64,000 bases of DNA from assembly GCA_030272155.1 (NCBI GenBank), contig CP126205.1, positions 4,080,501 to 4,144,500 of the forward strand, written 5' to 3'. Below, piece by piece: positions 492-63,242 of this stretch. The notes under the pieces were generated by a model. That model saw only the letters and a list, made by a program, of their open reading frames with translations. It did no database searches and was not told where the DNA came from. Numbering within the stretch: the first letter of the stretch is position 1; the number at the start of each line of letters is the position of its first letter. Source of the DNA: Tetradesmus obliquus. Its lineage: Eukaryota; Chlorophyta; Chlorophyceae; Sphaeropleales; Scenedesmaceae. The translations under genes and the position numbers were made by a program.

Positions 492-3400
492 CGTGGACAT
501 TTTCTTCCTGGACTGGGAGAAGCCGCGCCGCGTGCTGGCCAAGGGCGGGGGCCGCGAAGAGCCCGGGCCCGTGAGCGCGTGGCGCGGGCTGCTGGTGGCC
601 AACGAGTGGAACGAGCTGCAAACAGCACGCCTGACCTGCCCCAGCTTCACGCTGATCTTCATGGTGCGGCTCTTGATGGTTATTATATCACAACAGTGTT
701 ATGTAACATAACTTATGTTCGTCACTTATGTTCATCACTGCACTGCGTATATGAGCTCTATTTGCAGCGAGCGACTTGCAGTGGGATTGGATGTGGCAAA
801 AGGCCCCCACCACAAAAGCTGCGCTGTTTGATGCAAGCGCTGCCATTGCAGCTGCTGCTTTGCTCACCCGGTGATGATGATGCTGTTGGCGCATGCCGTT
901 TGCCAGGTGTTCATCCTGCAAGGCGCCAACATGCAGGCGGCAGCCTACATCAATCCAGACCAAAATGACTACTCGAGCTACGCCAACGTGCAGCAGAGCA
1001 TGCTGCTGCGGTTTGGCATTGCTGCAGTGTGGTTCCTGGTGCTGGGGGTTGCGCAGGTGAGCTGAACACACATTGCAGCTGGCAGCAAGCTGTACATGGC
1101 CCCTTCAGCCATTGCAAGTACGCCAACAGCGCACAGAGGTGCAGCAACAATCATGCTTGCAACGCGCGCAGCCACTTGGATGTGCCGCTGGAAGGTCAAC
1201 TGTGCCCCGTTCTTCGCCATGGGTTTAAAAGCTGGCAACCGCTGACGCAGGCGTGGCACAGCCCAGCAAAAAGCAGCAGCGGCTTGTGACAGCACACTGC
1301 CAAAGCTCCAACACATGCAGGCCTCATGCTGCACAGCAGCCATCGTCGACTTGCTTGTCTCGCTTACCGCCTGGGCATGCATCTGCTGCAGGTGCTGTGG
1401 AAGGTGGCTGTGGTGCACCGCTTTGCCGGCCACCCGCTGCACGGCTTCATTGACTTGCTGTTCCTGGCCAACACCAGCGCTGATAAGTTATGTTCGCTGT
1501 TGCCTGCACATGTACCGTGTGCAGGTGCTTGGGAAGGTGGCTGTGGTGCACCGCTTTGCCGGCCACCCGCTGCACGGCTTTATAGACCTGCTGTTCCTGG
1601 CCAACACCAGCGCTGATATGTTCTGTTTGCTTGTGTGCTCTTGCCTGCACACGTACCTTGTGCAGGTGCTTGGGAAGGTGGCTGTGGTGCACCGCTTTGC
1701 CGGCCACCCGCTGCGCGGCTTTATAGACCTGCTGTTCCTGGCCAACACCAGCGCTGATATGTTCTGTTTGCTTGTGTGCTGTTGCCTGCACACGTACCTT
1801 GTGCAGGTGCTTGGGAAGGTGGCTGTGGTGCACCGCTTTGCCGGCCACCCGCTGCACGGCTTTATAGACCTGCTGTTCCTGGCCAACACCAGCGCTGATA
1901 TGTTCTGTTTGCTTGTGTGCTCTTGCCTGCACACGTACCTTGTGCAGGTGCTTTGGAAGGTGGCTGTGGTGCACCGCTTTGCCGGCCACCCGCTGCACGG
2001 CTTTATAGACCTGCTGTTCCTGGCCAACACCAGCGCCATCATCCTGGATGAGCGCCACAGCGGCTACTACCTGCACGGCCGCAACCAGATGCACCACTCG
2101 GGTGCGTGGCCATGCATGCCATCATCATCATGTTTACCCATAGCATCAACGCCATCGGCCCCGCGCCATGCATGCCAGATGGTTGGTGCGCGTTCAGAAT
2201 CCGCCTGGTGGAATTGCTTTACAGCTGTGCTGATTGCGGAACCAGGCTCTTGCAATGTAGTGCTTGCCAAACACACGGCTGTCAGCTGGCAGCTAGGCAG
2301 CCATACGTATGGCTGCAAGGCGGCACTGTGTACATGCTTTTTTCCTTGCTGACACACTCTGTTGCTGTTGCTGGTGCTGCTGCTGCCCGCCTGCAGACAC
2401 ATCGCTGGCTGAACTGAATGGCGATTTGCTGCGGGAAGAAGAGGGCCTGGTGGCAGGCAGGGGGCTCATCACAGGGTACACAGGTGAGGCGCTGCTACTG
2501 CCCGGCTGTGCTGCTGCCTCGGCTGCGTTGGCTGCACAATGCACTGCTTTGCCAAACCGCTTGTTGGTGCAGTGCCCACAAGGTGACACATGCCCTGCAT
2601 CGCTGTACCCTCAGGACGCTTCTGCAGCGCTTTGCGATAGGCTACCGTAGCGGACACCTCACTGCATGTCCGCTTGCTCTTGCCTGTCATGTTCCACCAT
2701 ACACCTGCACACCGCCTGCCCCTTTCCCCCACCAGGCAGCGTGGCCAGCATCAGCGGCGGCCTGCTGGCCTCAGGGCCGGATGCAGCAGCACTGAATGAC
2801 AACCAGGTCTTCCTGATGCACGTGTCGCCCGAGCTGCGGCGGCGCTACGAGAGCACGCTGCTGAGCCAGGTGGAGCAGGTGGGCGGGGCGCGCTGGTGTT
2901 GTGGCAGCTACCTGTTTTTACAACTGCCGATGTTTCAAGCGGCACAAAGCGTGCAGCAAGCAGTCTGCTACTGGTTTGCATGCGCACCGGCGCAGCAAAC
3001 ACGTAGCCGCATGTTCAGGCAGGGAACGCTGCTGTCTCCAGCGATATAACACAGTTAAGTATACCGCTGACGTGCCAACTCTACTTGCCTGTGGCACGCA
3101 CCCCTCTGCCCCTCTGCTTACTATGCACAGGCTGCACAGGAGCAGCGGGCCAACAAGGGCGCAGTGACCAGCGCAGTGCGTGGGCCCAGCCGGCCGAGAG
3201 GCAGCAGCATGAGCGCCTCAGCATCCATTGCTGAGGCCTTCAAGGCAGCGCTGGATGAAGTGGAGAGGAACTACAGCACACAGGTTTGTTTGGTGGATGG
3301 GGAGCACACACTGCAGGGGAAGCTAAGATTGCCCAGGCCTCGCTTTGCTTGCACTGCACGGCGCGTAGTGGTGCTGCTGGTTGCTGTGTGCTCACCATTC

Positions 3401-5358: not shown

Positions 5359-7419
5359 ATGCATGCTAGCGTGTATGAGCGAGGGTCGGGCAAAGATGAG
5401 CTTGTGGCCAAAAAGAAGGCGCTGAGCGGGGTTCGGAGACGAGTGGAAAAGCTGCAGGTGGGTTCAGTTTCGCGCTTCCGACATCGTCCAGCACTGTTTA
5501 CGAACGCGCTTGTATCAGTTTTGTTTCCTTGTTGGTAATTTTGTCGTTGACTGTGGCACTGTGTAGAGCACCGTGCCGCTCTAGCTGCTCATGCAGCACC
5601 CTTCCTGTGCCCTTGCCACTGTCCTGCAGGAGGAGAATGCACGCCTCACACACCAGCATCAGCTGCTCGAATAATTGTGCAAATGTTTGGATTGGTTCAG
5701 GCACATGCAGCTGCATGCACTGCTAGCAGATCATGAGCTGATGCTGGGAGACGATGCCAGCCAGCAGCTGACACCAGACAGCATGCAGCAGCAGTTCACC
5801 CACCTGTTGGAAACAGAGGTCGAGCTGCAGCTACTGCAGCAGCTGTCCAGCCTGCAAGTCTCCCAGCAAAACAGCAGCACGGCCTGTGCTGCACTGCCTG
5901 CATCAGCCCTTGACAGCAGCCAGGCTAGCAGGCAAGGGCCTCCTGCAAGCAGCAGCCATCTGGTCGCACCGCCAGGTGGTATGCTGTGGCAGATGAAGCA
6001 GGCAGTGCAGCAGCCTTGGCCGCACAGCTGCTCCAGTGCAGGCGACATCACACTACCAGAGCTGATGGAGCACTTCAGGGCAACAGTGCACACCTTGTCT
6101 GTGCAGCTGGTGCAGTTTGATGCCTGCCAGCAAGCAGCTGCGCAGGCGGAGCCGCTCCACATCTTGCGGAGCACGATACTGCAGCACAATCGTGTGATTA
6201 TTGAGATTTACGGCTGCAGCCGCGCACTACATTTGGTGACGTCTTTGCAGCTGGTGAGGCACGCCGCAGCGCCGTTGCGCACTGCAGCTGGTGGTGCCTG
6301 ATCCTGCGTGTTTGCTATTACCGGCCATAGCAACAACAGCTCGCCAGCGCTGCTTCAACCTGCAGACAGTCAAGCAGGACACCGTGCATCACTGTTGGCA
6401 GGGCGCATGTGTTTCTGGCGATTGCTATGCTGCATGCACGCGTGCTCTTTTGTGCAGCTGCTGTGCTCTGCACGAAGTACTGTCGCTCAGCAGGACTGCA
6501 ACTTGCAAGCTGTATTGACGGTCCTGCAATGCTTGCACCTCCTTCTGCTGCTGTTGCAGACCAATGCAGAGACAGGGGAGCCGCTGCTGGAGCCAGACAT
6601 TCAGCGCATTGCGCGGGTGGTTGACGGCCTGCAGCTGAGCAAGCAGCAGCAGCACAACATCGCCCAGGGTGCCATCTTGGCACACAAGCTGCTCGCACCT
6701 GTGCTGGCAGAGCTGAGGGAGCTGCAGCTGCAGCAGGGTGGCAAGTGCACAGCCGCTGCCGCTGCTGACAGCAAGGCAGCAGAGGCAGCAGATGTCGCAG
6801 CTGCAGCAGCTGGCAGGTGCGATGCCCGCGGCAGCAGCAGCAATGCTGCTGCTGCTGCCGTGTTAGATGAGGACGATGCGGCTGGTGCTGAGAAGGCTGC
6901 GGCGGGCAGCTTGGAGCGCAGGCAGTCGCTGCTGCTGCAGCAGCAGCGCTCGACCAGGATGAGGCTGCTGATGGGCAAGGTGAGGGGTGCTGTGGTGCTT
7001 TGCAATGAGGATGTGTGTGTTTCAGTCCTGCAAGTGCTCTGGTGTTGTCAGAGCGGCGCCGCGGTGTGTTTCGGTGCGCTAGGATGAGGTGACATCCTGC
7101 AAGTGTACTGGTGCTGTCACCACCTCAGAGGTGCACACCATGCATGGTGCTCTGTTGTGCGGCTGCTGTGCGTTGTGCCAGTTGCTGGCAGCATAGCGAT
7201 GTCTAAGAGTCTTGCTAGCATGGGGTTGGTCGCTAACGCTCTGGCCGCTGTGTGCGTTTGTTGGGCGGTGGCTGGATCTCGCTGCTGCTGGCCCTGCGCA
7301 TGTGCTGTTGCTGTGATCGTCACCGCCGTTGCTACTGTTTGCAGGGGGCGTCTCTGCGCGCATGCTTTGCGAACTACCTGTACGGCCAGCTGACTTGGGT
7401 GCAGCTTGCACGCTTGTTC
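5359..7419 (+). pseudogene. Tandem coiled-coil/bZIP-like family, copy 1: premature stop and missing last exon
   Basis: Four of the family's five exons are present with intact phases: 5359-5457, 5630-6253, 6560-6979 and 7345-7419. Exon 1 is 33 codons (starts MHASVYERGSG, ends RRVEKLQ). Exon 2 starts EENARLTHQHQLLE and then meets TAA at 5672-5674, where the other copies have Glu or Gly. Exons 3 and 4 carry the family blocks SKQQQHNIAQGA and NYLYGQLTWVQLARLF. The last exon (family motif LMxPxYP) was not found downstream; a transposon-like gene and 118-bp repeats occupy that place. The rest of the frame stays open, so the lesion is recent, or the stop is a sequence error. Function of the family is unknown. 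Confidence 0.7.
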
Positions 7420-7572
7420 GTAAGTACCTTGGGCTGGAGTCAGCAAGCAAAGGCATACCCGCAAGGTTGTGTTGTGTTCAGTGCTGTTGCCCTGTCGCAC
7501 TAAAGAGCACACCTCTGGGGGAAGTTGGTGCTGAGCGGCTTGCATACCCACAGATGCAGTTGCGCCTATGCT

Positions 7573-7840
7573 GAGGCAGTGATGAGCAACAGCACCACGC
7601 TGCATCATTGTGGTGCATTCCCTACGCTGGATCTGATGCAGTCCTGTTTCAACCTGTTTAACACTGCTTACACAGGCGCAACACGGTGCAGAGGCAGTGA
7701 TGAGCAACAGCACCACGCTGCATCATCGTGGTGCATTCCCTACGCTGGATCTGATGCAGTCCTGTTTCAACCTGTTTAACACTGCTTACACAGGCGCAAC
7801 ACTGTGCCGAGGCAGTGATGAGCAACAGCACCACGCTGCA
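7573..7840 (+). repeat. 118-bp tandem repeat, about 2.3 copies, spanning an exon start
   Basis: The motif GCAGTGATGAGCAACAGCAC recurs with a 118-bp spacing (copies begin near 7573, 7691 and 7809). Each of the first two full units ends in a CTTACACAG acceptor. Only the last copy runs on into the conserved downstream coding sequence. Confidence 0.85.
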
Positions 7841-10428
7841 TCATCGTCCAGCCCTGGGCAGCTGCTGTTCAGGGAGGGGGGCCCGGTGCTGAAGGCGCTG
7901 GAGCAGCTCATCCTGCTGGTGCGCGCGGGCAAGCTGTCAGGTGGGCACGCTCCTCCTGGTGGGCTTCTGGCAGTTGAGACAGGGCTGCTGGTTTCAGCCT
8001 CATCAGCACCAGCCAGCTGCACCGTGCCCAAAGTCAGCGATCCCAACAACTTGTAGTTGAGAATCGCTGCCAGCTATACCGCATTTCTCATAGTTGATCT
8101 CCTCACAGTGTAGGGGCTTGTGCACCTGTCGTTGCTGCTGTGCAGATCCGCTGCCTGTGGGCCAGATGTACCACAACGACTTTGCTGAGGTGCCCGGCAA
8201 GCTGACTGTGCCGCGCTCCAAGCGCACCACATCCCAGCTGGAGGGCTACCACGGCGCCGCGCTCAACCACGTGGTGCGCGGCTACAACACGAGCGCGGAG
8301 CTGGCCATCCCGCAGCTGACGCTGACAAACCACGCCTGGAATATAGACCGGCTGGTGAGCTTTGTGCCAGATGTCGTGCACAGCAGCAGCAGCAGCCTAC
8401 ACTGCCTGTCATCGGTAGCAGCATGCGTCAGGGGCCATCGCAGCGTGCTGCCGACAGCAACCGTCTTAAAGCAATCCTACTTTCAAACCCTTCCACAGTA
8501 GTGCATGCTGCATGCTGTTTTGTCTGACAGCAGCTTGTATGTGCACCATATTGAACAGTCTTAGGCTGGCTGCAACAGCCAATAGTAGCGTCTGTCACCA
8601 CTTGCTGCTGTCATGCTTGGATGATGTAGGTTGGTAGGAGGTTTCCTGCATGACTCACATGCTCGCCTTCTGGTGCACTGCTGCACAGGTTGTTGCTGGC
8701 AAGATGCGTCAGTACCACTGCTACGACCTGGCGCTGCTGCAGCTGCTGTCCAACAAGCTGCAGCGTCTGGGCTGCGAGCCCCTGCCCGGTGGGTGCTGCA
8801 ATGGTTGTTCATACGTGGCACATCTGTCGCCTAACCCTGTTCTGCAATGTTGGGCTACGAGTTGCTGCTTGGTGGTTTTTACCCGTGCTCTTCAAACATC
8901 CAGCAGCGATTATGTTCATGCTTCCGCAGCATGTAGCCAATGGTAGACACACATTAGAGGTGCGGCTCCGCTGTTGTGCCTGCACCGTGCTGGGAGATGG
9001 CTAAGAACGTGCAATGTGTATGTGCCGTACTGGATCTTGTTGGCAGCGGCGCAGAGCTACTATGTTACAGCTGACGCAAACTGGCCGTCTTGTCATGTGT
9101 CTGCTGCAGATGTGGGCGAGGATCTGCTGCCCTTCCTGGTCAACGACACGGTGAATGTCAGCGCGCTGCGCAGCGCAATGCAGGACATGTCCTGTGTCCA
9201 GGTGGAGCCGGGGGTGCTGCCAGAAACTCAGCAGCAAGCGGAGCAGCTGGAGGATGACATGCCTGAGGGGGAGGACGACGTGCTAGCAGCTGAGTGGTTC
9301 CAGGAGCAGCGCCTGCACCCTGAGCGGCACCCAGTGGCTGCAGCTGCAGCTGCAGCTGCGCCTCTGCAGGTCCCTGTTGCCCCGTGGCTGCAGGACGCAG
9401 GCGCTGCCAGCAGGGCAGACGCCCCAGTTGGGGCGGTGCCTATGTCAGGAGCCACAACAGGGACCGCGGCAGGTGGGGCGGCTGCTGCAGGTGCAACAGC
9501 AAGGGAGGCGGCAGCTGCAGCAGCAAGCGAGGCTGCTGCTGCTGCTGCTGCTGCTGCAGCAAGCGAGATGGCTGCTGCTGCAGCTGCAGCAGCATCTGGC
9601 CGGGTGGCAGGGCCATCATACGCACCACTGGCGGCTGGTGCTGAGCTCGGCAGCACTGCCAGCATGCTGGCACCCACAAGTGCAGCAGGCGGCTACTGCA
9701 CAATTGAGGTGGGTGGCCACAGCCGCGCAACTCTGGATGTAGCTGCAGCAACCGGCACAGGCACAGCTTTGCTTGGCAAGCGCAGCCATGCCAGCCGCCG
9801 CGGTGCTACCTATGCAGAGATGGTGCGGCCTGTGACTGGGAAGCTGGAGTGGGATGTGTTCAGGCGCCTGCTGAGGACCTGCACAACTAGAAAGGGCATC
9901 GATTTTCAGCGCTTGGGAGATTTGTGGGATGAGGAGATGGAGGAGATGCCTGCGCTGACACCCAACAGCACCACCACATTGAAAGCAGCTGAGAAAGAGT
10001 ATTCACACTACCTGGCACTGAAGCAATCTGTGTGCGCTGCGCAGGAGGCTGATGCTGCTCCAAGCGGACATGGCGGGAGCTCTGCAGCAGCTGCAGCTGC
10101 CAACAGCACAGCTGCAGTGCTCGGGGCAACCACCATAGCTGCTGGAGCAGGTGTCCTGCCCTTTGTGCAGGCAGCACAGCTTGCTGGCATCAGCCAGCTT
10201 GTCCGCACTGCCCAGGGCCAGCAGGTGGTGAGACCGCTTGCAGTGCAGCAGCGTGCGCAGGCAAGCCTAGCAGCTGCCGCTGTACCGCGCCCGGTGGTGC
10301 TGCAGCAGGCCTTGCTGGCCCAGCGTCCAACCAGGCTGCTGTACTCCTGCAGCAGCAGCAGCAGCAGCTGCTGCAGCAGGCATTGGTGCAGCAGGCGCTC
10401 GTGCAGCAGCAGCAGCAGCAGATGCTAG
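7794..10428 (+). CDS. Probable transposon-derived protein with a QLEGYH...NHAWNIDR core; 5' end unresolved
   Basis: Exons 7794-7940, 8146-8354, 8689-8788 and 9110-10428 join in phase. The first exon needs an upstream exon that I could not place. Conserved-looking blocks in order are GPVLKALEQLILLVRAGKLS, DPLPVGQMYHNDF, RTTSQLEGYHGAALNHVV, NHAWNIDRL and MRQYHCYDLALLQLL. The pattern of a Cys/Arg-rich lead, S-x-LEGYH and WNIDR resembles the C-terminal part of large eukaryotic transposon proteins as I remember them; this is inference, not a search result. The last exon adds an acidic stretch, long poly-Ala and a helical segment (WDVFRRLL...IDFQRLGDLWDEE). It ends near 10428 in one frame, while an overlapping frame (10383-10577) continues as poly-Gln, suggesting a slip in the CAG tract. 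It may be a domesticated or decaying element. Confidence 0.4.
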
Positions 10429-19730: not shown

Positions 19731-22331
19731 ATGTTTGCGAGCGTCCCGGGAAGAAGGTCGGTCAAGGAGGACATGAAGTCTAAAAGCAAGGCGCTGAGCT
19801 GGGTTCGGAGGCGTTTGGAGAAGCTGCAGGTGAGTTTGCAGTGGAAAATCCACTTTTGAAAAGGCCACGTGAACACCACTACCCGATCATAAGTCTAGGT
19901 TTCAGTCTATTGCTGGTGTGGACTTTGCGTATTCAGTTGCCGTGAGCACAGCGTGGAGCAGCCTCTGTGTCCTTATGACAGCACCCTCCCAAAGGCAGGC
20001 CTTGTTCCCTCTCGAACTCTCCTGCAGGGGGAGAATGAGCGCTTGGCGTACCAGCACCAGCTGGTTGCAGGACTGTGCGAAGGTTTGGACTGGTTCAGGC
20101 ACATGCAGCTGCATGCACTGCAACCAAATCCTGAGCTGATGCTAGCAGATGATGCAAGCAGGCAGCTGACATCAGCCACATGCAAGCAGCAATTCACCAC
20201 CATTTTGCAGACAGAGGCTGAGGTGCAGCTGCTTCAGCAGCTGTCAAGCTTGTCAGTCTCTCAGCAGAGCAGCAGCAACAGCTCATTGGCAGCCGCAGCA
20301 GACAACAGCAGACAGGACAGCTGTAGCAACACGCCGCCTCCAGCAAGCAGCTGCCAGCTGGTTGCACCGCCAGGCGATGCAATGTGGCTGTTGAAGCAGG
20401 CCTTTCAGCAGCCTTGGCCGCACGACTGCCCCAGTATAGATCAAGTGACAGTGCCAGCGCTGGTTGAGCACTTCAGGGCAACAGTGCACGCGTTGTCTTT
20501 GCAGCTGGTGCAGCTTGATGCATGCAAAGGAGCTGCCGAGCAGGCTGAGCCTCTGCGCAAGGTGCAGACAGTGCTGCTGCCTCACTTGCGGGTGATAGTG
20601 GAGCTGTGCAGCAGCAGCCACGGCAGGCATCTGCTGGCAACAGTGTACCTGGTGAGGCTCAACGATCGGGGCTCTTATGTGCTGCCGCTGGTAGTGCTGC
20701 ATTCTGCCGAGTCGGCAGCTCCATCTGGTACACTCAGCCAGCGCTGCCACACCCTGCAGACCTGGATACAGCACTGTGCATCACTCTTGGCAGGGCACAT
20801 CTGCTGCTGAATGTGGATGTGCTTGCTGATGCGGCAGGTGCCCTTCAGCTGCTGGTTGGCAACAGCGACAGCAGCAGTGTCCTGCACTCATCACTTTTGC
20901 TTATCAGCTTGCAGGACGATCGCAGCTTGCAAGCTGAGCTGACAGTGCTGACAGTGCTGCAGTGCTGCAGCTTGTTCCACTGCTGCTGTCACAGACCAGC
21001 TGCAAAGCAGGACAGCAGCAGTGCCTTGTGTCGACTGCTGTTGTCTAGCAGGAGCGTGCCCTGCAAACCGCCCGTGGTCACAAAGCTGCCACTGCCGCTG
21101 CTGCCGCTCCTGCAGACAAATCTAGAGACAGGGGAGCAGCTTCTGGAGCCAGACATGCCACGCGTAGCGTGGGTGACAGACAGCCTGCAGCTGAGCCAGC
21201 AGCAGCAGCACAACATCGCACAGGGCTCTGTGCTGGCAGACAAGCTGCTGACACCGCTGCTGGATGAGTTGAGGGAGCTGCAGCTGCAGCAGGGCGGCGG
21301 CTGCACCTCTCCTGATGATGGCAGCTGCAGCAGGACAGCAGGTGAAGCAGCACAAACTGGCAAGTGCAATGCCAGCGCTAGCAGCGGCAGCAATGCAGCA
21401 GCAGCAGCAGCAGCAGCAGCTGCTGCTGTTGCTGTGCCGGATGAGGGCGGTGCAGCGCCTGCTGGGCAGGATGGGGCGTATGCCGTGGAGCGCATGCAGT
21501 CGCTGCTGCAGCAGCAGCAGCGCTCAGCTCGGATGAAACTGCTGATGGGCAAGGTGAGGGGCAAGGCTGTGGTGTTTTGGATGAATGCAACACTGTTTTC
21601 GGTGTGGCGCTGCATGCGGTTTCTGGTCTTGTTAGCAGCCCAAGTCATGATCTGGTCAGCTATGCGCAGCGGGCGGTCTGAAGGGTGTCGTGCGTTGTGT
21701 TCATGCCTGCAGCATGGAACTGTACTTGTCCTAGCAGCGCCTGCTTTGCTGCAACTGCTGACACCCTGAACATAGTGTGGCCGTGGTGCATGGCCTGGAG
21801 CCTGCTGCCCTTCACATTGCGCTTGTGCTGCTGCTGCTGCTTTTGCCGCCGGATGCTGCTGTCATCGCTTGCAGGCTGCGTCTCTGCGCGTATGCTTTGC
21901 CAGCTACCTATACGGCCAGCTGACCTGGGTGCAGCTCGCCCGCCTGTTTGTAAGTGCCCAGTGCTACAGCCAGCCAGCTGTTACCACATGATTGCGCTGT
22001 GTTCAGTGCTGTTGCTCGATCTATTGAATCCAATTACTTCAAATATTGTTTGAAGCTGGTTGTCAGGGGCGTCACACTTACAGGTGCAACCAGTAGCTGA
22101 GGCTGGGGTGAGCGACAACACAGCGCTGCGCTGCTGGTGCAGTGTGCAATGTCTTACCCTGTGCGCAAGACAGAGGCGGCACAGTGCCTTGCAAAGCAAC
22201 CGCAACACTGAATACCTGCCCACAAGGAATGCCTGCTTGCTGCTGCTGCTGCTGCTGCAGGTGCTGATGTTCCCGTGCTACCCCATTGCCATCTTTGTCT
22301 TAGGTGCAGTGGCTGCCCAGGCGGCACGCGC

Positions 22332-32556: not shown

Positions 32557-37614
<5,058 letters not shown>

Positions 37615-38679: not shown

Positions 38680-40502
38680 ATGGCTGAAGCCACCACGAAG
38701 CAGAGGGTGTGGCTAAGCTGGTCCAGCGGCAAAGATTGCGTGAGTTGATTGGTGCAGCATGTGTGCAGTAACAAGCTACACCAATGGACGGCTGGTCCAG
38801 CAGCAGCAGCAGCAGTAGCAGCAGCGAGAGCAATGACAACAGCAGCAGCACACAGCGTCGCTTATGCACACGCAGTGTGGTGCAGCATGTGCTTGTGAAT
38901 GCTCAAGTGAAGAAGATGCCAACATGCCTTGGCAGGCACCCGCCTGATCACATGAGCAGCAAACTCTGATGCTGCACAGCACACCTCCTTGCTTTTCACT
39001 TGGCAGCAGGCTTCCCAAGTTAAATCATGGTGCTGCACTCACAATGCAGTGTCAGTGTTATCAGTCTGCGTCACATTCTCGCTGTACAGCTGCAGTCAAC
39101 ATAAACCTGACCTCGGGTGCTGTTGCAGGCCTACGCGCTGCACACGCTGCGCCAGCGTGATGATTTAGATGTAGTTGGGCTGCTGACCACCTCACGGCTG
39201 CAATCATGCAGTTCCTGAGTGTAAAAACACATGTAATGCTGCTGCTGCCCGCCAACACGCTGTGCTGATGTGCAGGTGTTTGGGCTGCTGACCACTACAC
39301 GGCTGCGATCCTGCAGTCATTACATTCAGATGAACCTGTTATGCTGCTGCTGCTGCTGCTGCATGCAGGCTTACGCGCTGCACACGCTGCGCCATCGTGA
39401 TGACGTGGACGTGGTGGGCCTGCTCACCACCTTCAACGGGCAGGCAGAGCGCGTGGCGATGCACGCGGTGCGGCTGCAGCTGCTGCGCATGCAGGCGGCA
39501 GCGGTAGGCCTTCCTGTGCATGAGGTGAGGCTGGCACAAGCTGATGGGTATATACATTCTTTGCTTTGCATTTTTCATGCTAGACTGTCCATCTACATTG
39601 TTTTGGTTGAACATGATGCAAATGCTGGCACGCCTGCTAGTCATGTTCAACACACCGCGTTGACTACAGCAGTGCAATTTTTTAGTATGGCTGTTGCAGG
39701 ATCAGTTGCGGCACCAAACATGTTTTAAAGCTTGCATGCATGGCTGCTCTGCTGCATGTCGGTGCTCCTACGCCGCAGCGCTGTTGCTGCGACGGTAACC
39801 AGCGTTTCGCACTTGCAGGACGTCCGAATATTAAATGCAGCAGCATTGAGGTATCAAGCATGCATGCTGTCCTCTGTCCCGCAGGTCATGCTGCCCTTTC
39901 CCTGCTCAAACGAGGACTACCAGCGCTGCATGCTGGGCGCAATTGAAGCAGCACGCGCAGCAGATGTTCAGGCAATCGCCTTTGGGGACCTCTTCCTAGC
40001 TGATGTGCGGGCGTACCGCGAGAAGAACATGGCCGGCACGGGCCTAGGGACGCTGTTCCCTCTGTGGCTCGCTGACAGCGGCAAGAGCACTGCACAGTTG
40101 GCACAGGAGATGCAGGCGGCCGGTTTGAGAGCTGTTATAACGTGCATAGACCCCAAGAAGCTGCCGAAGGGTTTTGCAGGCCGGTTTTGGGATGCGCAGC
40201 TGCTGCAGGAGATGCAGGAGCTTGGCAGTGGTATCGACCCCTGTGGGGAGAATGGGGAGTTCCACACGTTTGTGATTGATGGTCCGATGTTTAGTGCAGC
40301 ATTGGATGTTACTGTAGGGGAGGTAGTGGAGCGGGATGGCTTTGTGTTCTGTGATGTGCTGCCAGCAGGGGTGCCGGTGGATGAGCCAGCACAGCAAGCA
40401 GAGCAGCAGCAACTTGGCCAGCAGCAGCAGCAGCAGCAGCTTGCAGATGCTGTCCTAGTGGAGGCTGTAGCAAGTATGGTACAATGCCCAGGACAGCAGT
40501 AA
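38680..40502 (+). CDS. Dph6-like PP-loop ATP pyrophosphatase (DUF71 family), ~277 residues
   Basis: Exons 38680-38739, 39369-39524 and 39885-40502 join at phase 0. Exon 1 gives MAEATTKQRVWLSWSSGKDC, the PP-loop that activates a substrate by adenylation; the usual final Ser is Cys here. Exon 2 continues AYALHTLRHRDDVDVVGLLT. The C-terminal exon carries GTLFPLWLADSGKSTAQLAQ and GIDPCGENGEFHTFVIDGP, the signature of diphthine-ammonia ligase relatives. The architecture is the short one-domain form seen in bacteria; the longer eukaryotic Dph6 adds further domains. The last ~40 residues are Gln-rich and probably disordered. True diphthamide synthesis is possible but the short form may act on another substrate. 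Confidence 0.82.
39129..39318 (+). repeat. Two upstream copies of exon 2 of the Dph6-like gene
   Basis: After TTGCAG, 39129-39208 repeats AYALHTLRQRDDLDVVGLLT and then diverges at SRLQS. 39275-39318 repeats only the VFGLLTTTRLRS part. The working exon begins at 39369 after a CTG run. Confidence 0.87.
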
Positions 40503-54366: not shown

Positions 54367-57300
54367 CTACCCATGCACATCACACAGCCTGTCTGCCGCA
54401 TCATCTACCACCAACTGAGCAGGAGGAGAGCTTGCTTGCGCCCTCCGCTTCAACTCAGCTGCTTTTGCTGCGTCAAGCAGCACGCCGCTGTTGTTGGCCA
54501 CACATAGGCACTGCAGCTTCAAGCCATCCCCAACCAGGTACTCGAAAAACTCAGGAGTACCATTGGCAGCTGGCACCAGCTGATTATCATGCACCTTGAG
54601 CACTGCTAGTTGCAGCATGCTGGCATACCATTCTGGCAGGCTGCCTGTCAGGCTGTTGCGTGACACGTCCAATACCCGCAGCTGCTTGAGGCGCGTCCAG
54701 GCTGGCGGCAGTGACTCGTTGAAATTGTGGCCAGACAGAACCAGCATCTGCAATCAAAGCACCACTGTAACCGTTAAGGCAGAGCCGTTGCAGTAGAGAA
54801 CCGGTTGCTGGCTTATCATAAACCAAGGGTGCCGGCATTCTTATGTTCAGCTCTGCCATGCTGTCCCATGGTTTGTTGTCATCAACGCCAGCAGCTTGGC
54901 TGGTGTACATGCAGCCGGTGGAGCAGTGCAGCAACCCCTGCAGGTCTGTGCAACCCGCACACACCGTCACCACTTGCTGGAGATGTTGTCTACATGTGTG
55001 TCAGCTGGCTGTAGCCACAGCACAGCATGCCATGATGCTACTATGCTTCATAGGGACTCCCTCCTTATGGAGATCCCCACTCACCTGCAGCTGCTCAAGC
55101 TGCGCAAAGGCGGCAGGCAGCGATCCAGTGCGTGTGCAACTCCAACATGTGTAGCAACGCTGTTGCTGGCATGCTTTTGTCATGAAACAGAGCGCTAGTA
55201 GATACACGACACCCCTGGCTGCTTCCTATCTCTAAAGGGTCGAGTTGCAACCCACCTGCAGCTGCCCCAGCTGTGCAAAGGCGGCAGGCAGCGCCCCGCT
55301 CAGCCCTCCCGTGCCAGGCGCTGCCACAGACAGGTCCAGCACACGCAGCCGCTGCAGGCCCAGCACAGCAGGCTGCGCTGAGGCAGTTGGCGGGCTGGTC
55401 TGTTTGGCTCCTGATGCTCCTGAAGCTGCTGCTGCTGGTGCTGCTGCTTGAGCCTCCATGGATGCTGCAAGTGCTGCCGCTGCTTGTTGCAACGCTGCTG
55501 CGTCTGCCCATTCTGGCGGCAGCCCTCCTGTCAGGGCAGCATTAGTCATCTCCAACACCTCAAGCTGCAACAGGCCCCAGGCGGGCGGCAAGATGCCAGT
55601 GATGCCTGGACAGTCAACAGCCCTGAATTCCCGCAGCTCCTGAAAAGCAGCAAACTTCTCTGGCAGAGTCCCGCCAATGCCTGTGGCTGAGATGTCCAAG
55701 GTAGTCAGGGCACGCATGGCAAACCAGCTGCTGGGCAGGTCACCAGTAAGCGCTGGGTTGCCGCTGATGTCCAAGTGGTGCAGCTTGGTGAAGGATTCAA
55801 GGCCAGGCCAGCTTGGGTCCTGCACAGCGCCAGACAGGCCTATGTTGGCTAGCACCAGGGTTTGCAGTTGTGTGAGGTTGCTGATGGCAGCCACAACGTC
55901 AAGCAGTGGGAGTGTTGCTGGCGGCTGGACGCTGACAGTCAGTGCGGTCAGGTTGAGGCCGGTCACAGCGCTGAGCCCTTCGCAGGTGACGCCTGCCCAG
56001 GAGCCTCCACAATAGTTGCTGCCTGCAAGCAACACGCCAAACATCAGAACAAGGAGACTATGTTGGTTGCGTCTAGCGCTCAAAACTTGACAGTAACTGG
56101 GCGACAAGAAGCCGCTCGTTCACGTCCTTGCTTCTTCCTGATGTCAAGGCTGGTCACACTGTAGTTGCATCATAACTTGGCTTGTTGGTTGCTGTTGCAA
56201 GGACCCCCCCTGAGACCTTGATTGCTATTGCATCATCATCTGGCAAGTGGATGTACGCTTTGTCCATTCCCAATGACACCCAAGGTCATAGTGCAGTTTG
56301 ATGCATGGCTCTAACCTTCCAGGCAGGGCAGTTTGCTCACCTGCAATCCAGTTGGACAGCCCCGGCCCTACACTGATGCCTGGGGCTTGAAGCAGCAGCT
56401 TGAGTTGGACAAATGCTGTAGCCTCCGCACGTTCATTGTAGCACGGCTTCAATGGACGGTCGTGGACAATGCGGTTTTCAAGGCCGTCAGGCACGCACCC
56501 AACAATACCTGTCCCATTCAGAGTGATCGTCCCCAAGCCAAAGTGTGCCCAAGATGAAGGAATGCTTCCTGTCAACTGGATGTTGTTGCGGACACCAAGC
56601 GTCAAGGTCTTGGGCATGATCGCGCGCTGGCCCCAACTGTCTGGCAATGAACCTTGAAGATTGTTATTCCTCAAGTACACTTTTGAAAGGTTCAACAAGG
56701 CTGCCCAGCTAGATGGCAGCACGCCCGTTAGCTCGTTGTCATTCAGATCAATGGTGTGCACACCCTGCCAGGCACTCCACTGCAGTGGCAGCCTCCCAGT
56801 CAAACCACATTCTGGCAAAACAAGTGAATGAAGGCTTGTCGCTGAAAGGCCTGACAGCAGCTGCAGATTCTCAGGAGCCAGATTGCCATCACACACATCG
56901 CATTCAAATGATGCGATACGGGGAAGTGCTGCCACCAATTTGACCAAGGCCGCAAGGTGGATGGCGGGATGCAGGTGTGCCACTTCCTTATAGTGGAAGT
57001 GGTAAAACATAATGTCTGTCACGTACTCCTCATCGTTGATGGCTGTCACCGTGGCTGCCAAAAAATGCTCTGCAAAAGTAGTTGTGAAGGTTGTGGATGT
57101 CTCTCCGTCGCCAACCAGCCGACCAAGCCGTGATAGTCCTTTCAGCAAGTCCTGCACCATTTGATTAAACCCTTTTGCTTGTTCACCCGTACCAACAAGT
57201 ACTCTTGGGAGCAGGGATCGCAATGCTCGCCATTGTTGCAGCGCCTTGGCTGCCGCTGTGCCCGCAAAAGAGCACATCCCAGATATCTGTGTGTTGTTGA

Positions 57301-60300
57301 TTGTCTTTTCCAAAAGCTCTGGCTTACCAGTTGACAAAGGGACACAACCATCAAGTCCTGGGTTGTTTTGCACATACAGCTGTGTGATCTTGCCTGCTGC
57401 TATGCGCCAACTTCGTGGGAAATGACCCTGCACACAAGAAAACATAGTGATTCACAGACAACTCTTTTTTTATGAGGCCCGCTGGGCCTAGTTTTCTGCC
57501 AGGAAAAAAAAACGCTTTTGGAAAACAGATGTATTGTCAGCAACCTACTGTACGCTTGCCACCCGCTTGTGCCAGTACTGCTCGTCAAACTACCGTGGCC
57601 TATGGAGGCAGCCTTTGAGGCGCTCTGAATCTAAACTCCCAGGCCAACCATGTACATCAATGCAAAAACTTTGCACTGCACTGCACCTGCAAGAGCAGAC
57701 TTTGCTTTCGTCATTGCGTATAGCGCATCATGCTGGGAGGCCATGTTGACTGAATATCACACGGAAAGTTTTTCACATGCCAGCTGCAACTGCGTGTGTT
57801 CACGGCTCACCTCTAGTTTGTTGTTGGACAGGTCAATGGCTTCAGCAACAACCTTGCTGGACATGTTCGCCCCTGGGATGGACCCGCTGATCTTGTTGTT
57901 TGATAGGTCAATGTGTTTTGCCAGCGACAATAGCTGGGTTGGCAGTTGACCTGTGATCTGGTTGTGTGATAGTTGCAACTGATACAGGGGTGGATAACTC
58001 CTTGGGCGAGTATGGTTGTTCAGGGTCCCGCTCAGCCCGCACAAACCACCAGCCGGATTGCTTGCTCCAACTGCGCGCAATTTAGGCACAACTTCAAGCA
58101 TCGAGAGGTTGTATAGGCTGGCCAATAGGTTGTCAGGAAGGGCGCCATGAAGGCAGTAGTATTGAATGTATATTATTTCAAGATGCTTAAGAGCTGCTAG
58201 CTGAAGAGCCAGTGCGCCCTTCCCAATGTCCAGACTCAAGAACTCCAACTTGGGTAAGCTGAGAAGTGCAGCTGTCAAATCCGTGTTCATGTCTGGAAGA
58301 ATATATATTCCTTCAACAAATGTCAATGCAGCAGACTGCGCTTCTCCAAGGCTGAGGGACTGGACATTGAACACTGGTTTGATGGAGTTGCTGGTTGATG
58401 TGCTGCACCCAACATACCATTCCAGACTTTTCTTGTTGGGTGTGTGGATGGGGATGGGGATGCCAGTGGACATAGAGCACACAAAGTACTGCAGCGCCCA
58501 GCTGGCGGTGATGGTGCTGTCCACAGCCCGCAGCACCTGCAGCAACCCCATGGCCTGAGCCTCCTGCATGGGGGCCTGGGCCAGAATGCTGCCATTGATG
58601 AAAGCCACCCTGTCAAACTCTGCAAATGACGACCAGCCTTGATTGCACACCCTGACTTGCTGTCCAGCTTTTAGAGCAGATGTCACATTGACATCTTGGT
58701 AGGTGAGTGAGCACCCCACCACACCTGTCAGAAACATAGCAAACACAGCAAACACAGCAAACGTGCATGGTGTTCCACGTGACGCCAGTGTTCAGAGTAC
58801 ACTTCCAGCTGGTTATGTTGTCAACATCACCCAAACCGAGAACATTCAACTCTGTGCACGGCATGACTGGCGTGTTTGCAGATGCCAGCAGCTGCGGCAC
58901 CACACTACATGCATGGACTTTGAGAGGCTCTCACCTGGCTGTGCGCAGGCAGCATAGTTTGCCATGGTGCACCTGACATCCGTCCTGTCGCCAGCCGCAT
59001 CATACTGCGAGCAATGCACGTATGGCTTGACGGCGCTGTAGACAGAGGTCACGGTTTCTGCTGTGTCCAAGGCAATGCGCAGCTGATCCTCCTTGAGGGT
59101 GGAGCCAAAAGCATACTTGAAGCTTGTCACGGCACCCACGGCGCCTGACCGAAGGTTGGCCTTGTCCTGCACAAACTGTAGAAAAGAAAGAAAAACGAGA
59201 ATGAGTTTGACAAAGGAGAGCGTTGCGCACAAGATGTACACTTCATAGCTGCACGACGCTGCTCTGCAACTGCCCACAAATGAGTAAAACAAGTACTCAC
59301 AAATGGCAGGCAGCTCAGCTGATCAAGCTTGTCGCTGCTCACCTGCCGCATGCCCAGGCCAAAATGGTCAACGATTGACGCCACAGTGTCCCCTTCCTGT
59401 ACTGTGTACCTGTAGCAGGTGTTGCTCAGCAGCACTTCCCTGCTCTCAGGGGTCAGCGGCCTCCTCCTGCTGCGGGCCCAGGGTTGCTCATGGTTGGGGT
59501 GCAGGGGCGTGCCCTCAGCAGGGTAGCAGCTCACTGCGAACGCATTGAACCCCCATGTTAGTTGGCTGCAGCAGGTAGTCGGCAAGGCAACTACAGCCCA
59601 GCATGTAGGCTAAACTTTTTGATTTTATAATTCGTATTTTTTTTGAGCGTTTCAAATAATTGAGAAAATTTAAATTAGATAAGAAAATAATTAAAATAAA
59701 TTTGTTAGGGTTTAGATATCAATGGTTTCAGAAGCATATGCCTTGCCAGGGCACCCACCTGCGTAGGTGGCGTCGGGCGTGCCCACTCCTGCCAGGCCCA
59801 TCTGCATCCTGAACAGGCCGTCACCAGTGACGCCGCTGGACCGCAGCTGGCCAGGGTCGCCGCCCCTGCCCCAGCTGTTCAGCACAGACCTATGTGCAGA
59901 AAAATTTGCGGCGGGTACACATTACGACAGGAATTGGATCAACCACCCAAGTTATCAAAGTATCTGTGCAATTTCATACAGCAGCAAGGCTGTACTAGGC
60001 TGCGTGAGTGTCAGCCGTAGCTGTGCGTTGCCAGCAGCTCAAACTGCGTGCAGCGCACAGTCAGCTGCGCCGTTGGTCACGAGCACGCATACATGAGCAC
60101 AGCATGATGGCACATGCGCCAACTCATTATTTGCGTGCATTGAGTCTGGCTTTGCCCCCACCATGTGAAGTTGCTGTTGTCATAGCCGGTGATGAGTGCG
60201 GCATGAGCAAAGCTGCAGGCAGGCAGGCGAGGCAGGTGGACAGTCAGGCAGGCGAACATGCATTCTGCTTCAGGCAAGCAAAGCTGCAACACACAGGCGA

Positions 60301-63133
60301 CAGCCCTTTGGCAGCATCGTCGTTGCTTGGTCCATTTAGCAATCCACACTTGCTGGCAGCATCTGCAATCTGCAACAAATTGCTCTGCATAATACAGCTG
60401 GATCACTGCATCATGATTGCCTTACAACAACACGTACGCACATGCCACAGTATGTCATATTGTGTAGCTTCCATTCATATACCAGCACACCTGGGCTTAG
60501 CTGTGATGTTGTAACGGTAGGGTAGCAGCAGCAGCCCACGCTTGTTTCTGGCGCTGGCGTTGAACTGCACCTCAAAGTCATTGTTGACCAGCATCCTGGT
60601 AGGAGGCGGCAGCAGCAGCGGCAGCAGCAGCGGCAGCAGCAGCAGCAGCTTGGAGTCCACCCGCTGCAACACCGCATTACGTTAAAAGGCAACATATAGC
60701 ACACGCATCCATGTGCCAGCTTGGTTGCTGGCTGTCGCATGCCAAGGTGTCACATTACAATGTATGCTTAGCCACCCAGGCAAGCCATATGCAGGAAACA
60801 AGGCAGTTGCTAGGCACCAATGAAGAAAAAGGTTGAGCAACAAAAGGTCACCCAGTCAGTACCAGGCTGCGCAACTTTTTTACATGGCCGCACCTTGTCA
60901 CCACTGCGCCGTGTGCGCGGATGTGCTGCTGAATCTGGTAGAAGGAGCTCAGCGACTTGAAGGAGCAGCGGAACAGCGGCTGCTCCCTGGTTATATCCTT
61001 GCAAGTTGGTGTTGCTGCTGCTGCTGCAGCTGCCGCGCATATGCTGGACCACTCGCCCACATCCGCCTCGTCTTGGCCCTTCAGCAGCTTAGCGGTGTTG
61101 AAGCAGCTGCTGGGCAGCACCCACTGAGGGTTCTCAGTCTGCAGGCGTGCGGGGCGATGAGGTGGCAGGGGTTCATGCCATTGAGGCAATGCTGTGAGTT
61201 GATGCGTAGGGCTGCTGAGCCTGCAGCAGTGAACAGCTGCTTTTAAAGTTGCCAATAACAGCCAGCAGCCGGCGGCAACTGCATCATCTGTCAACCAGCT
61301 GGCCCATTGAAAGATGGCGGCAACTGCATCATCTGTCAACCAGCTGGCCCATTGAAAGATGGCGGCAACTGCATCATCTGTCAACCAGCTGGCCCATTGA
61401 AAGATGGCGGCAACTGCATCATCTGTCAACCAGCTGGCCCATTGAAAGAAGTGTTGAGCGCTGCATCAGGTGCATGCACTGCAACTGCCTGGCTAGCGCT
61501 TTCAGAGAGCTGGCTCAGCACTTACCAATGCTCTGTGACACAGGATCAACAAGCACAGTGGCGGCAGCAGGCAGTGGCAGCAGCAGCTGCTTCAGGGGTT
61601 GCAAGCAAGAGGGTATGTGGCAAATGAAGAGCATGAAAGTTGCGCACAGTGCATGCCTGGCTAAACAAAGGCTGTGAAGATTGCTGCAATCGAGTGTCTT
61701 GGTGGAGAGGGAACAGCAGTGCAATCCTGCAGTTAGGAGCTGTGGAATCATCTTGCCGTTCATTGTAGCGGACAGTTGTTGCTGCTCACTTGAGGGCTTC
61801 AGGAATGTCCCACCTGCAACAGAAGCACACACAGAACACGTCGTGAAGATTGCCATCTGTGGTAGGGTACCAACTTACAAGGCCATCCATGGCACTGGCA
61901 TGGTGACCTCTGCCTGCTGACATTTTTGTTGGGTGGTTATCCTCTCTCAAAGCCAGCAGCAGCAGCAGCGGCAGCAGTGACATTGCCTACAGAAGCAGTA
62001 GCAGCTGTCAAGCTGAATCATGTATCTAAGGATGGTGTCCTCGCCTCAAGCACGCACCCGGTCTTGCAGCTGCGGCCGCCTGGTGGTGCGCAGTAGTAGA
62101 AGGCCTGCGGGCTGACGGCAAACTGGCCGCTGCTGTTGCGCAGCGTGGCTGCCAGGGATATCTGCACAGCCTTGGTGATGGCCTCGGACACACTGCAGCA
62201 GCAGCAGCAGCAGCAGCACAAAGCGTTCTTGACACAGCATGTCTGCAGCTGATGGCATGCTGCATGGCGCAAGAGCTAGCATTAGATATTCAAGCGCGTG
62301 AACCATGTCCGTGGCTATGGGGTAGCTGACAGCCCGGCATGCCTGCATTTGCTTTGTGCGTTGACAAGGTGGCACATGGACTACCACAACACCAACAGCA
62401 CCAACAGCAGCAGCAACAGCAACAGCAGCAGCAGTCGCCGCACTGGCCCATCCACACCCACCAGGTGGAGCACAGCTTCTGGTCGTTGACTGCGCCTATA
62501 TAATTGAGCCCGCCTGGCGTGTGGCGCGGGTTGCTGCTGTCATACACCTGGGGCGAGCCAGCGATGTAGTACATGGCTGTCTGCATGGTGGCGAAGGACT
62601 TGGGGTTGGCAAAGCCGCCAAGGTTGTTGCTGCCGCCCCTGGCGCCCCTGCAGCAGCATAATACAGACAAATTGACCTAGTTTTGAGCAAGCAACAGACC
62701 CTGTGCTGCCTGAATGTGATGCTTGCTGTGCTGCTGCTATCGCTGCTGCTAGTGTGCTGCGGCGGTTGCCACTTCACAATAGTGCCACGGAACGCAGCAG
62801 TACTGCTAGTAAAGCCACACGCTGCAGTTATTGTAGCCAACAGCGTGCAACCTGAGCGCAGCTACACGCATCGCACTCTTAGCAGTTGCTACACTTTTAG
62901 TTGCTCACCTACCCGCTGCCTCCTGTTGTGCCAGCATCTACTGCACAGACACAGTATGAGTGCAAGCCACAGCACTGTTCAAGCAAAGGCGCCGCCCCAC
63001 CTGCCCCTGCCTCCTGTGGTGGCCAGCTCCAGTGCCGACTCAAACTGCTCAAACTCGTTGGCTGTGGCCTCAGCGCCCGCCCCCAGGTTGTCCGCTGACA
63101 CAGACAGGCCCTGCCCTGAGGCCAGCCTGATGC

Positions 63134-63166
<33 letters not shown>

Positions 63167-63242
63167 GCGGGCCTTGAAACGGAGCTACTGCTACGATAAT
63201 TGCCAGTAGATAGGCGAAAAGTCGTTTCTTGTTGGCAGGCAT
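54367..63242 (-). CDS. Secreted papain-like protease - LysM - leucine-rich-repeat fusion, ~1582 residues
   Basis: Fifteen exons in transcript order: 63242-63001, 62647-62462, 62192-62058, 61813-61790, 61532-61526, 61138-60894, 60595-60491, 60212-60162, 59889-59759, 59533-59301, 59175-58935, 58724-57811, 57427-56341, 56022-55256 and 54747-54367; total 4749 nt, every junction in phase. Residues 1-25 (MPANKKRLFAYLLAIIVAVA) look like a signal peptide. A C1-papain domain follows: VNDQKLCSTC (oxyanion Gln137, nucleophile Cys143), CKTGWDIPEAL, HAALITGYDNSNFTW (His318), VLNSWG (Asn336). The usual Trp after the catalytic Cys is Val. A LysM domain (CYRYTVQEGDTVASIVDHFG, from ~415) comes next, then a ~1000-residue region of plant-type LRRs (LxGxLPxxW, such as LTGVLPSSWAALLNLSKVYL), including NYCGGSWAGVTCE. 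No C-terminal membrane segment. Likely acts at the cell wall or outside. Neighbours give no functional clue. Confidence 0.8.
55084..55130 (-). repeat. Truncated copy of an LRR exon end in the last intron
   Basis: On the minus strand it reads TGSLPAAFAQLEQLQ followed by a GTGAGTGG donor, matching the end of the 56022-55256 exon (GALPAAFAQLGQLQ). It could act as an alternative cassette only if an acceptor precedes it, and none is clear. Confidence 0.8.
59612..59735. other. A/T-rich island inside intron 9 of the papain-LysM-LRR gene
   Basis: About 120 bp of poly-A/T-rich sequence (for example AAATTTAAATTAGATAAG) in otherwise G/C-rich DNA, unlike every other intron here. Organellar or transposon insertion is possible. 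Confidence 0.7.
61271..61450. repeat. 45-bp minisatellite, four almost perfect copies
   Basis: Unit begins GGCGGCAACTGCATCATCTG; copies start at 61271, 61316, 61361 and 61406. It lies between the 7-nt microexon and the next exon of the minus-strand gene. On that strand it is open (WLTDDAVAAIFQWAS repeated), but including it is not needed to keep phase. Confidence 0.95.

Follow-up and report, generated by a model that had tools for sequence, protein, structure and literature searches.

A papain-like protease gene with a split LysM domain and a long leucine-rich repeat tail in the green alga Tetradesmus obliquus

The window analysed here is a stretch of 64,000 nucleotides from the green alga Tetradesmus obliquus (contig CP126205.1, forward-strand positions 4,080,501 to 4,144,500). 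Its minus strand carries, from position 63242 to 54367, a single spliced gene that joins a papain-like (C1A) cysteine protease domain, a LysM domain divided by a cysteine-rich insert and approximately 1000 residues of leucine-rich repeats (LRRs) in one open frame. Related genes form a family, and their products are conserved at the catalytic residues. We regard it as just on the probable side that the product is a secreted C1A protease, which its split LysM and LRRs would target to cell-surface proteins, with interaction with microbes as the likeliest setting.

One spliced gene and its domains

The gene reads in one frame from an ATG at 63242 to a TAG at 54369-54367 on the minus strand and comprises 15 exons, separated by GT..AG introns, with 1568 codons for a protein of 1568 residues (~166 kDa). 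Both ends coincide with those given beforehand by an earlier sequence-only reading, whose proposal of one phase-consistent gene with the order papain, LysM and LRR is borne out. The exons, like all features of this gene on the minus strand, lie at 63242-63001, 62647-62462, 62192-62058, 61813-61790 and 61532-61526 (exons 1-5), 61138-60894, 60595-60491, 60212-60162, 59889-59759 and 59533-59343 (exons 6-10), and 59175-58935, 58724-57811, 57427-56341, 56022-55256 and 54747-54367 (exons 11-15). Two protein searches with the protease half, in which the 7986 and 7994 candidates sharing most words were scored, yielded at least 25 public homologues (P0001-P0025). All 14 exon junctions fall within BLASTP alignments to public homologues, and 13 of them are crossed without a gap (at most six residues from the junction) by 8 to 25 alignments each; these are counts of alignments, in which some homologues figure twice and P0015 represents the window gene itself. 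The junction leading from LysM to the LRRs (exons 11/12) is crossed ungapped in 8 of 14 alignments, or 7 when P0015 is left aside.

The protease domain (approximately residues 108-381, exons 2-10, 59517..62568) matches the Pfam model Peptidase_C1 (PF00112) with 23.9 bits as compared to a cut-off of 20.7, covering residues 130-340 and profile positions 13-192 of 220. The complete active site announced by the sequence-only reading is present: Gln137 of the oxyanion hole (62479..62481), the nucleophile Cys143, whose codon is interrupted by an intron (62463-62462 plus 62192, hence 62192..62463), His318 (60203..60205) and Asn336 within NSWG (59877..59879). These four residues are unchanged in 10 of 10 aligned family sequences. 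A genome-wide search with PF00112 (17 contigs, 104,662,953 bases) returned 49 exon-level matches and none on the window's own contig (C15), because the single exons of the window gene are each too weak to be detected in this way. P0015 alone had no match in the PDB at E 0.001.

The LRR tail spans residues 569-1568, in agreement with the length of about 1000 residues predicted earlier, and consists of three modules of plant-receptor type. Pfam analysis of the window protein gave 73.2 bits for LRR_1, 51.5 bits for LRR_8 and 22.6 bits for LRRNT_2 at residues 1159-1200 (LRRNT_2 cut-off 20.7). Modules 1 (approximately residues 569-878, 57266..58578) and 2 (approximately residues 886-1158, 56426..57244) were mapped from residues 564-885 and 893-1160 of the structure model of P0001, the latter being taken to end where the following LRRNT begins. 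Module 3 (residues 1159-1568, 54370..56425), which bears the LRRNT_2 cap, was delimited by Pfam and by homologues aligned nearly to the end. In the PDB, the plant LRR ectodomains GSO1, FLS2, MIK2, HAESA and PRK6 as well as PGIP rank among the top matches of the LRRs by sequence and by fold, and share with them the plant-type sequence and the solenoid. Two structure comparisons returned only LRR-type and papain-type chains among the 50 matches listed and are uninformative on the LysM domain and its insert. The predicted folds of protease and LRRs are seen in models of homologues rather than of the window protein. NCBIfam models matched P0001 and P0005 below cut-off only, and these were mainly LRR effector models.

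Exon 1 (63001..63242) encodes a hydrophobic N-terminus followed by a conserved region (ATANEFEQFE...TGGRGRG) that has no Pfam match. By hydropathy, residues ~7-26 are a probable signal peptide, which is consistent with the earlier suggestion that the protein is secreted; in the AF2 model of P0001 residues 1-80 have low confidence. Hydropathy windows above 1.5 occur at residues 7-26 and 978-998 only, the latter lying inside the LRR tail. In contrast to plant LRR receptors, the window protein showed neither a transmembrane segment by hydropathy nor a kinase in the Pfam scan, and it carries its three LRR modules on a protease.

P0015, a partial public annotation of the gene from T. obliquus, is identical to the product over residues 80-448 and 504-621. 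It also backs the 7-nt microexon 61532-61526 by reading EALK-AL-TENPQ. An earlier model of 1593 residues, in which exon 4 was joined directly to an exon starting at 61220, was dropped because P0015 and the homologues read ALKA(L/M)TENPQ. Two exon-like segments are left out of the final model: one at 62940-62913 that is similar to the end of exon 1, and an optional one at 55132-55085 (TGSLPAAFAQLEQLQ followed by GTGAGT) that duplicates the end of exon 14. Homologue alignments pass from exon 1 to exon 2 and from exon 14 to exon 15 with neither segment included, and both segments were rejected as exons. P0015 starts at an ATG inside the first segment and for this reason lacks the signal peptide. 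The introns of the gene additionally hold a minisatellite of four 45-bp copies (61271-61449, minus strand, 100% match), which is open in one frame and intronic in the final model, as well as an AT-rich block at 59620-59720 that differs from its flanking sequence.

The split LysM domain and its cysteine-rich insert

The first half of the LysM domain (beta-alpha-alpha, residues 415-447, exons 10-11, 59152..59417) is separated from the second half by a cysteine-rich insert of 82 residues (residues 448-529, 58696..59151, 3' border approximate). The second half, DVNVTSALKAGQQVRVCN, occupies residues 530-547 (58642..58695) and lies on the exon that also encodes the first LRRs. In the contiguous protein LysM (PF01476) scores 13.5 bits, below the cut-off of 20.9, and is matched at profile positions 1-24 of 43 only, because the insert divides it. 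As a contiguous match the LysM domain postulated earlier is therefore not upheld. Upon removal of the insert and joining of the halves, the score rises to 26.3 bits and the match extends over profile positions 1-42 of 43. The segment used as second half had been picked by eye ahead of this test. In 11 controls, in which the first half was followed by one stretch from the middle of the insert or by ten other stretches of the protein, scores were 18.9–19.2 bits and the match ended at position 24 or 25.

Segments of the DVNVTSALKAGQQVRVCN type are conserved in kind among the homologues that reach this region. When ten family members were joined without their inserts, a LysM match was obtained in six, reaching profile position 41 or 42 in the window gene and P0001-P0004 and position 31 in P0005; the corresponding controls gave a match in three of ten, none going beyond position 27. 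In the structure model of P0001 the LysM comprises a strand at 401-405, helices at 412-418 and 423-429, the insert, and a strand at 537-541. The beta-alpha-alpha-beta elements of a LysM domain would accordingly be present around the insert in this model, the support being weaker in other members. The border between the insert and the second segment is approximate, as the insert's final strand continues into the beginning of that segment.

The insert itself has four cysteines that are conserved in all nine aligned sequences. It is predicted to fold as beta-alpha-beta-beta-beta in the model of P0022, and likewise, with an additional short helix, in that of P0001. Cystatins, which inhibit papain-like enzymes, have a resembling order of elements and a QxVxG loop motif; the QxVxG pattern found no match in residues 448-529. 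When the insert was searched as a profile against the PDB, dihydroorotate dehydrogenase was the best match (E 0.0097), followed by weak matches to viral glycoproteins (E >=0.16), and all of these were judged to be due to chance. The split LysM shows how ordinary domain scans may overlook proteins of this kind.

A family in Scenedesmaceae and exon-scale repeats in the window

According to their labels, 19 of the homologues are from T. obliquus (one via the JGI label Sobl393 only), one is from Scenedesmus sp. PABB004 and two are from Scenedesmus sp. NREL 46B-D3, whereas three carry no species; all 22 species-labelled proteins hence belong to Scenedesmaceae. At E up to 10, PF00112 is found in 25 of 25 and LRR_8 in 13, so that 13 homologues combine papain and LRR, and the precomputed listing has PF00112 in 10 of these 13. 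The sequence-only reading had treated the LRR tail as unfamiliar and had called for a search for the same order elsewhere. Papain and LRRs do recur together in these homologues, and the gene is not unique but part of a multi-copy family. The 12 members from the second search could not show a full tail, since this search was limited to proteins of ~300-950 residues.

Three long homologues cover most of the window protein nearly to its C-terminus, aligning to its residues 1564 (P0006, in two pieces), 1534 (P0012) and 1497 (P0005, from Scenedesmus sp. PABB004). P0005 groups with three other copies (94/90, not starred), on a branch flagged as long and of unsure place. This grouping is a hint that the fusion may be older than the split between T. 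obliquus and Scenedesmus sp. PABB004. The alignments of P0001-P0004, which form one clade (100/100), stop at residues 1140-1155 and lack module 3; this short form may reflect a later loss or a limit of annotation. By eye, P0022 reads through papain and LysM into the first LRR. From its type of name (prefix GHRQ) we take it to be a transcriptome record with the reading frame called on assembled transcripts, and as such it would support the junction indirectly at the RNA level, albeit for a homologue and not for the window gene.

The homologues include OEZ86_008070, OEZ85_011462 and MSL1 (PABB004); several of the homologue models are truncated or contain unrelated domains. The public records are named 'hypothetical protein', 'uncharacterized protein' or after the papain domain, MSL1 being the one exception. 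No further tandem copy of the family was detected in the 64-kb window by tblastn at E 1e-4. A search with the LRRs only (7996 candidates scored) found PF00112, according to the precomputed Pfam column, in none of the best 120 of 167 matches, many of which are plant receptors. This search says little on further papain-LRR proteins, because the known ones are absent among the matches listed.

Repeats on the scale of exons occur elsewhere in the window as well. At 34000-36720 (plus strand) lies a putative 3-dehydroquinate synthase gene, presumed to be such from its motifs, in which three consecutive exons recur in several additional, degenerate copies, splice sites included. Its exon cores occur as four exact matches (first exon), three plus one variant (second) and five (third), in units of 125, 184 and 232-262 bp. 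The copies that look intact are the final one for the first and second exons and the initial one for the third. At 1387-2036 (plus strand) a 141-bp unit is repeated 4.7 times (95% match) within a Meckelin/TMEM67-like open reading frame (PF09773, E 1.3e-14), apparently with one exon in each unit, and at 7569-7847 a 118-bp unit is present in 2.4 copies (97% match), representing an exon-scale tandem duplication. Together with the exon-like duplicates in the protease gene, these repeats may indicate that exons are often duplicated in tandem in this genome. The open reading frames 6302-7087 and 20549-21769 (plus strand) contain a similar stretch (...ETGE.LLEPD...QQQHNIAQG...), lack a Pfam match at E 0.01 and are perhaps dispersed paralogues. 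A further open reading frame at 39729-40502 (plus strand) matches the diphthamide synthase family PF01902 (E 8.3e-20).

Possible roles of the protein

That the protein is secreted and active as a protease, that it binds glycans and proteins, and what role it has, we infer from its sequence. One nuclear gene would give rise to a secreted papain-type cysteine protease that is followed, towards the C-terminus, by two targeting parts. The LysM and the three LRR modules would hold the protease on a particular glycan or protein surface and select its substrates, and the enzyme would cut proteins at or outside the surface of the algal cell. Sugar recognition, protein recognition and proteolysis, as the sequence-only reading had proposed, could in this manner be coupled in one molecule. 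For the role we lean towards biotic defence, because the family is multi-copy and its LRRs are of receptor type, with turnover of the cell wall as a serious rival.

Several observations weigh against this reading. Cys143 is followed by valine (CSTCV), whereas the nucleophile of C1A enzymes is usually followed by tryptophan in a CGSCW motif. No propeptide family was found in the Pfam scan at E up to 10, and the N-terminal region is modelled with low confidence. The protein thus departs from the C1A family (cathepsins B, C, K and L; PF00112) in this motif, in having a N-terminal region of its own without a recognised propeptide, and in its long C-terminal extension. The joined LysM gives no match in four of the ten members (P0006, P0021, P0022 and P0010) and passes the cut-off in two only, namely the window gene and P0005; as the control of P0005 passes as well (22.3 bits), this protein does not count as evidence for a second half. 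The exon 13/14 junction is weak, having two ungapped crossings with 1 and 3 of 13 residues identical; 12 more alignments cross it with gaps, and it lies within the LRRNT, whose Pfam match spans the two exons. Finally, residues 449-503, which belong to the LysM insert, are missing from P0015, and beyond residue 621 this public model departs from the frame within exon 12 and hence in the first LRR exon; its close relative P0014 ends ahead of the LRRs.

The protease might instead be directed at the alga itself, its LysM and LRRs docking on the cell's own wall glycoproteins such that the mother wall is loosened or opened at division or mating. The anatomy of a secreted protease fits such a role. 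Moreover, the available part of a lectin survey reports that algae have C1A-LysM and other lectin-peptidase fusions, and it attributes cell-wall degradation to a Chlamydomonas M11 peptidase (PMC6362431). However, a housekeeping wall enzyme would not seem to need several divergent copies equipped with long LRRs of receptor type, and no paper on Tetradesmus autospores and a protease was found in the open-licence literature. Overall, we consider a wall enzyme possible, albeit less probable than targeting in a microbial setting.

In another scenario the protease would be a target or decoy for microbial inhibitors, and the LRRs fused to it would sense the inhibitor-bound state. Its two domain types are known to cooperate in tomato immunity: in the part of the source available, the papain-like protease Rcr3 and the LRR receptor-like protein Cf-2 act together outside the cell (PMC11371160), and the algal LRRs are of the plant-receptor type. 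Those are two separate proteins for which that text mentions no LysM, whereas the algal protein is one chain. Because it has no transmembrane segment or kinase match, signalling would need a partner protein; and while a decoy may dispense with catalysis, the active site is kept wherever this stretch is present. A bait of this kind is unlikely in our view. Still more doubtful is a built-in surveillance protease, in which LysM would read a glycan, the insert would clamp the papain site and the LRRs would detect a microbial ligand or the inhibitor-bound protease, recognition then freeing or reporting the enzyme. If true, green algae would have independently evolved a single-chain counterpart of tomato Rcr3/Cf-2.

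The breaks in the public models P0015 and P0014, before or early in the LRRs, could suggest that two or more neighbouring genes, for a protease-LysM and an LRR protein, had been merged into one. We hold this to be very improbable: domain borders lie inside exons, two separate genes are unlikely since the LRR exon also completes the LysM, homologue alignments cross the junctions, and in two species the annotations treat long homologues as one gene each. Equally improbable is a decaying copy or inactive pseudo-protease, for which the longer branch of the window gene (0.11 versus 0.019 in its nearest relative P0014) and the partial exon duplicates in its introns might speak, yet 1568 open codons, intact splice sites and four of four catalytic residues argue against it.

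Taken together, targeting of a secreted protease to cell-surface proteins is the reading we prefer. Proteins with C1A peptidase and LysM have been described in algae, as the sequence-only reading had suspected, and the lectin survey, as far as available, states that this association was not retained in vascular plants and mentions neither an LRR tail nor a split LysM (PMC6362431). In the open-licence literature we found no description of a papain-LRR fusion, of LRRs added to C1A-LysM or of a split LysM therein; the papain–LysM pair is hence known from algae and the added LRR tail apparently undescribed. This chlorophyte family unites papain and LRRs in a single chain, separated by a lectin fold, and offers a direct test of whether algae have protease-based surface recognition. 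It may provide an independent evolutionary case beside tomato, in which an LRR receptor reportedly cooperates with a papain-like protease at the cell surface (PMC11371160).
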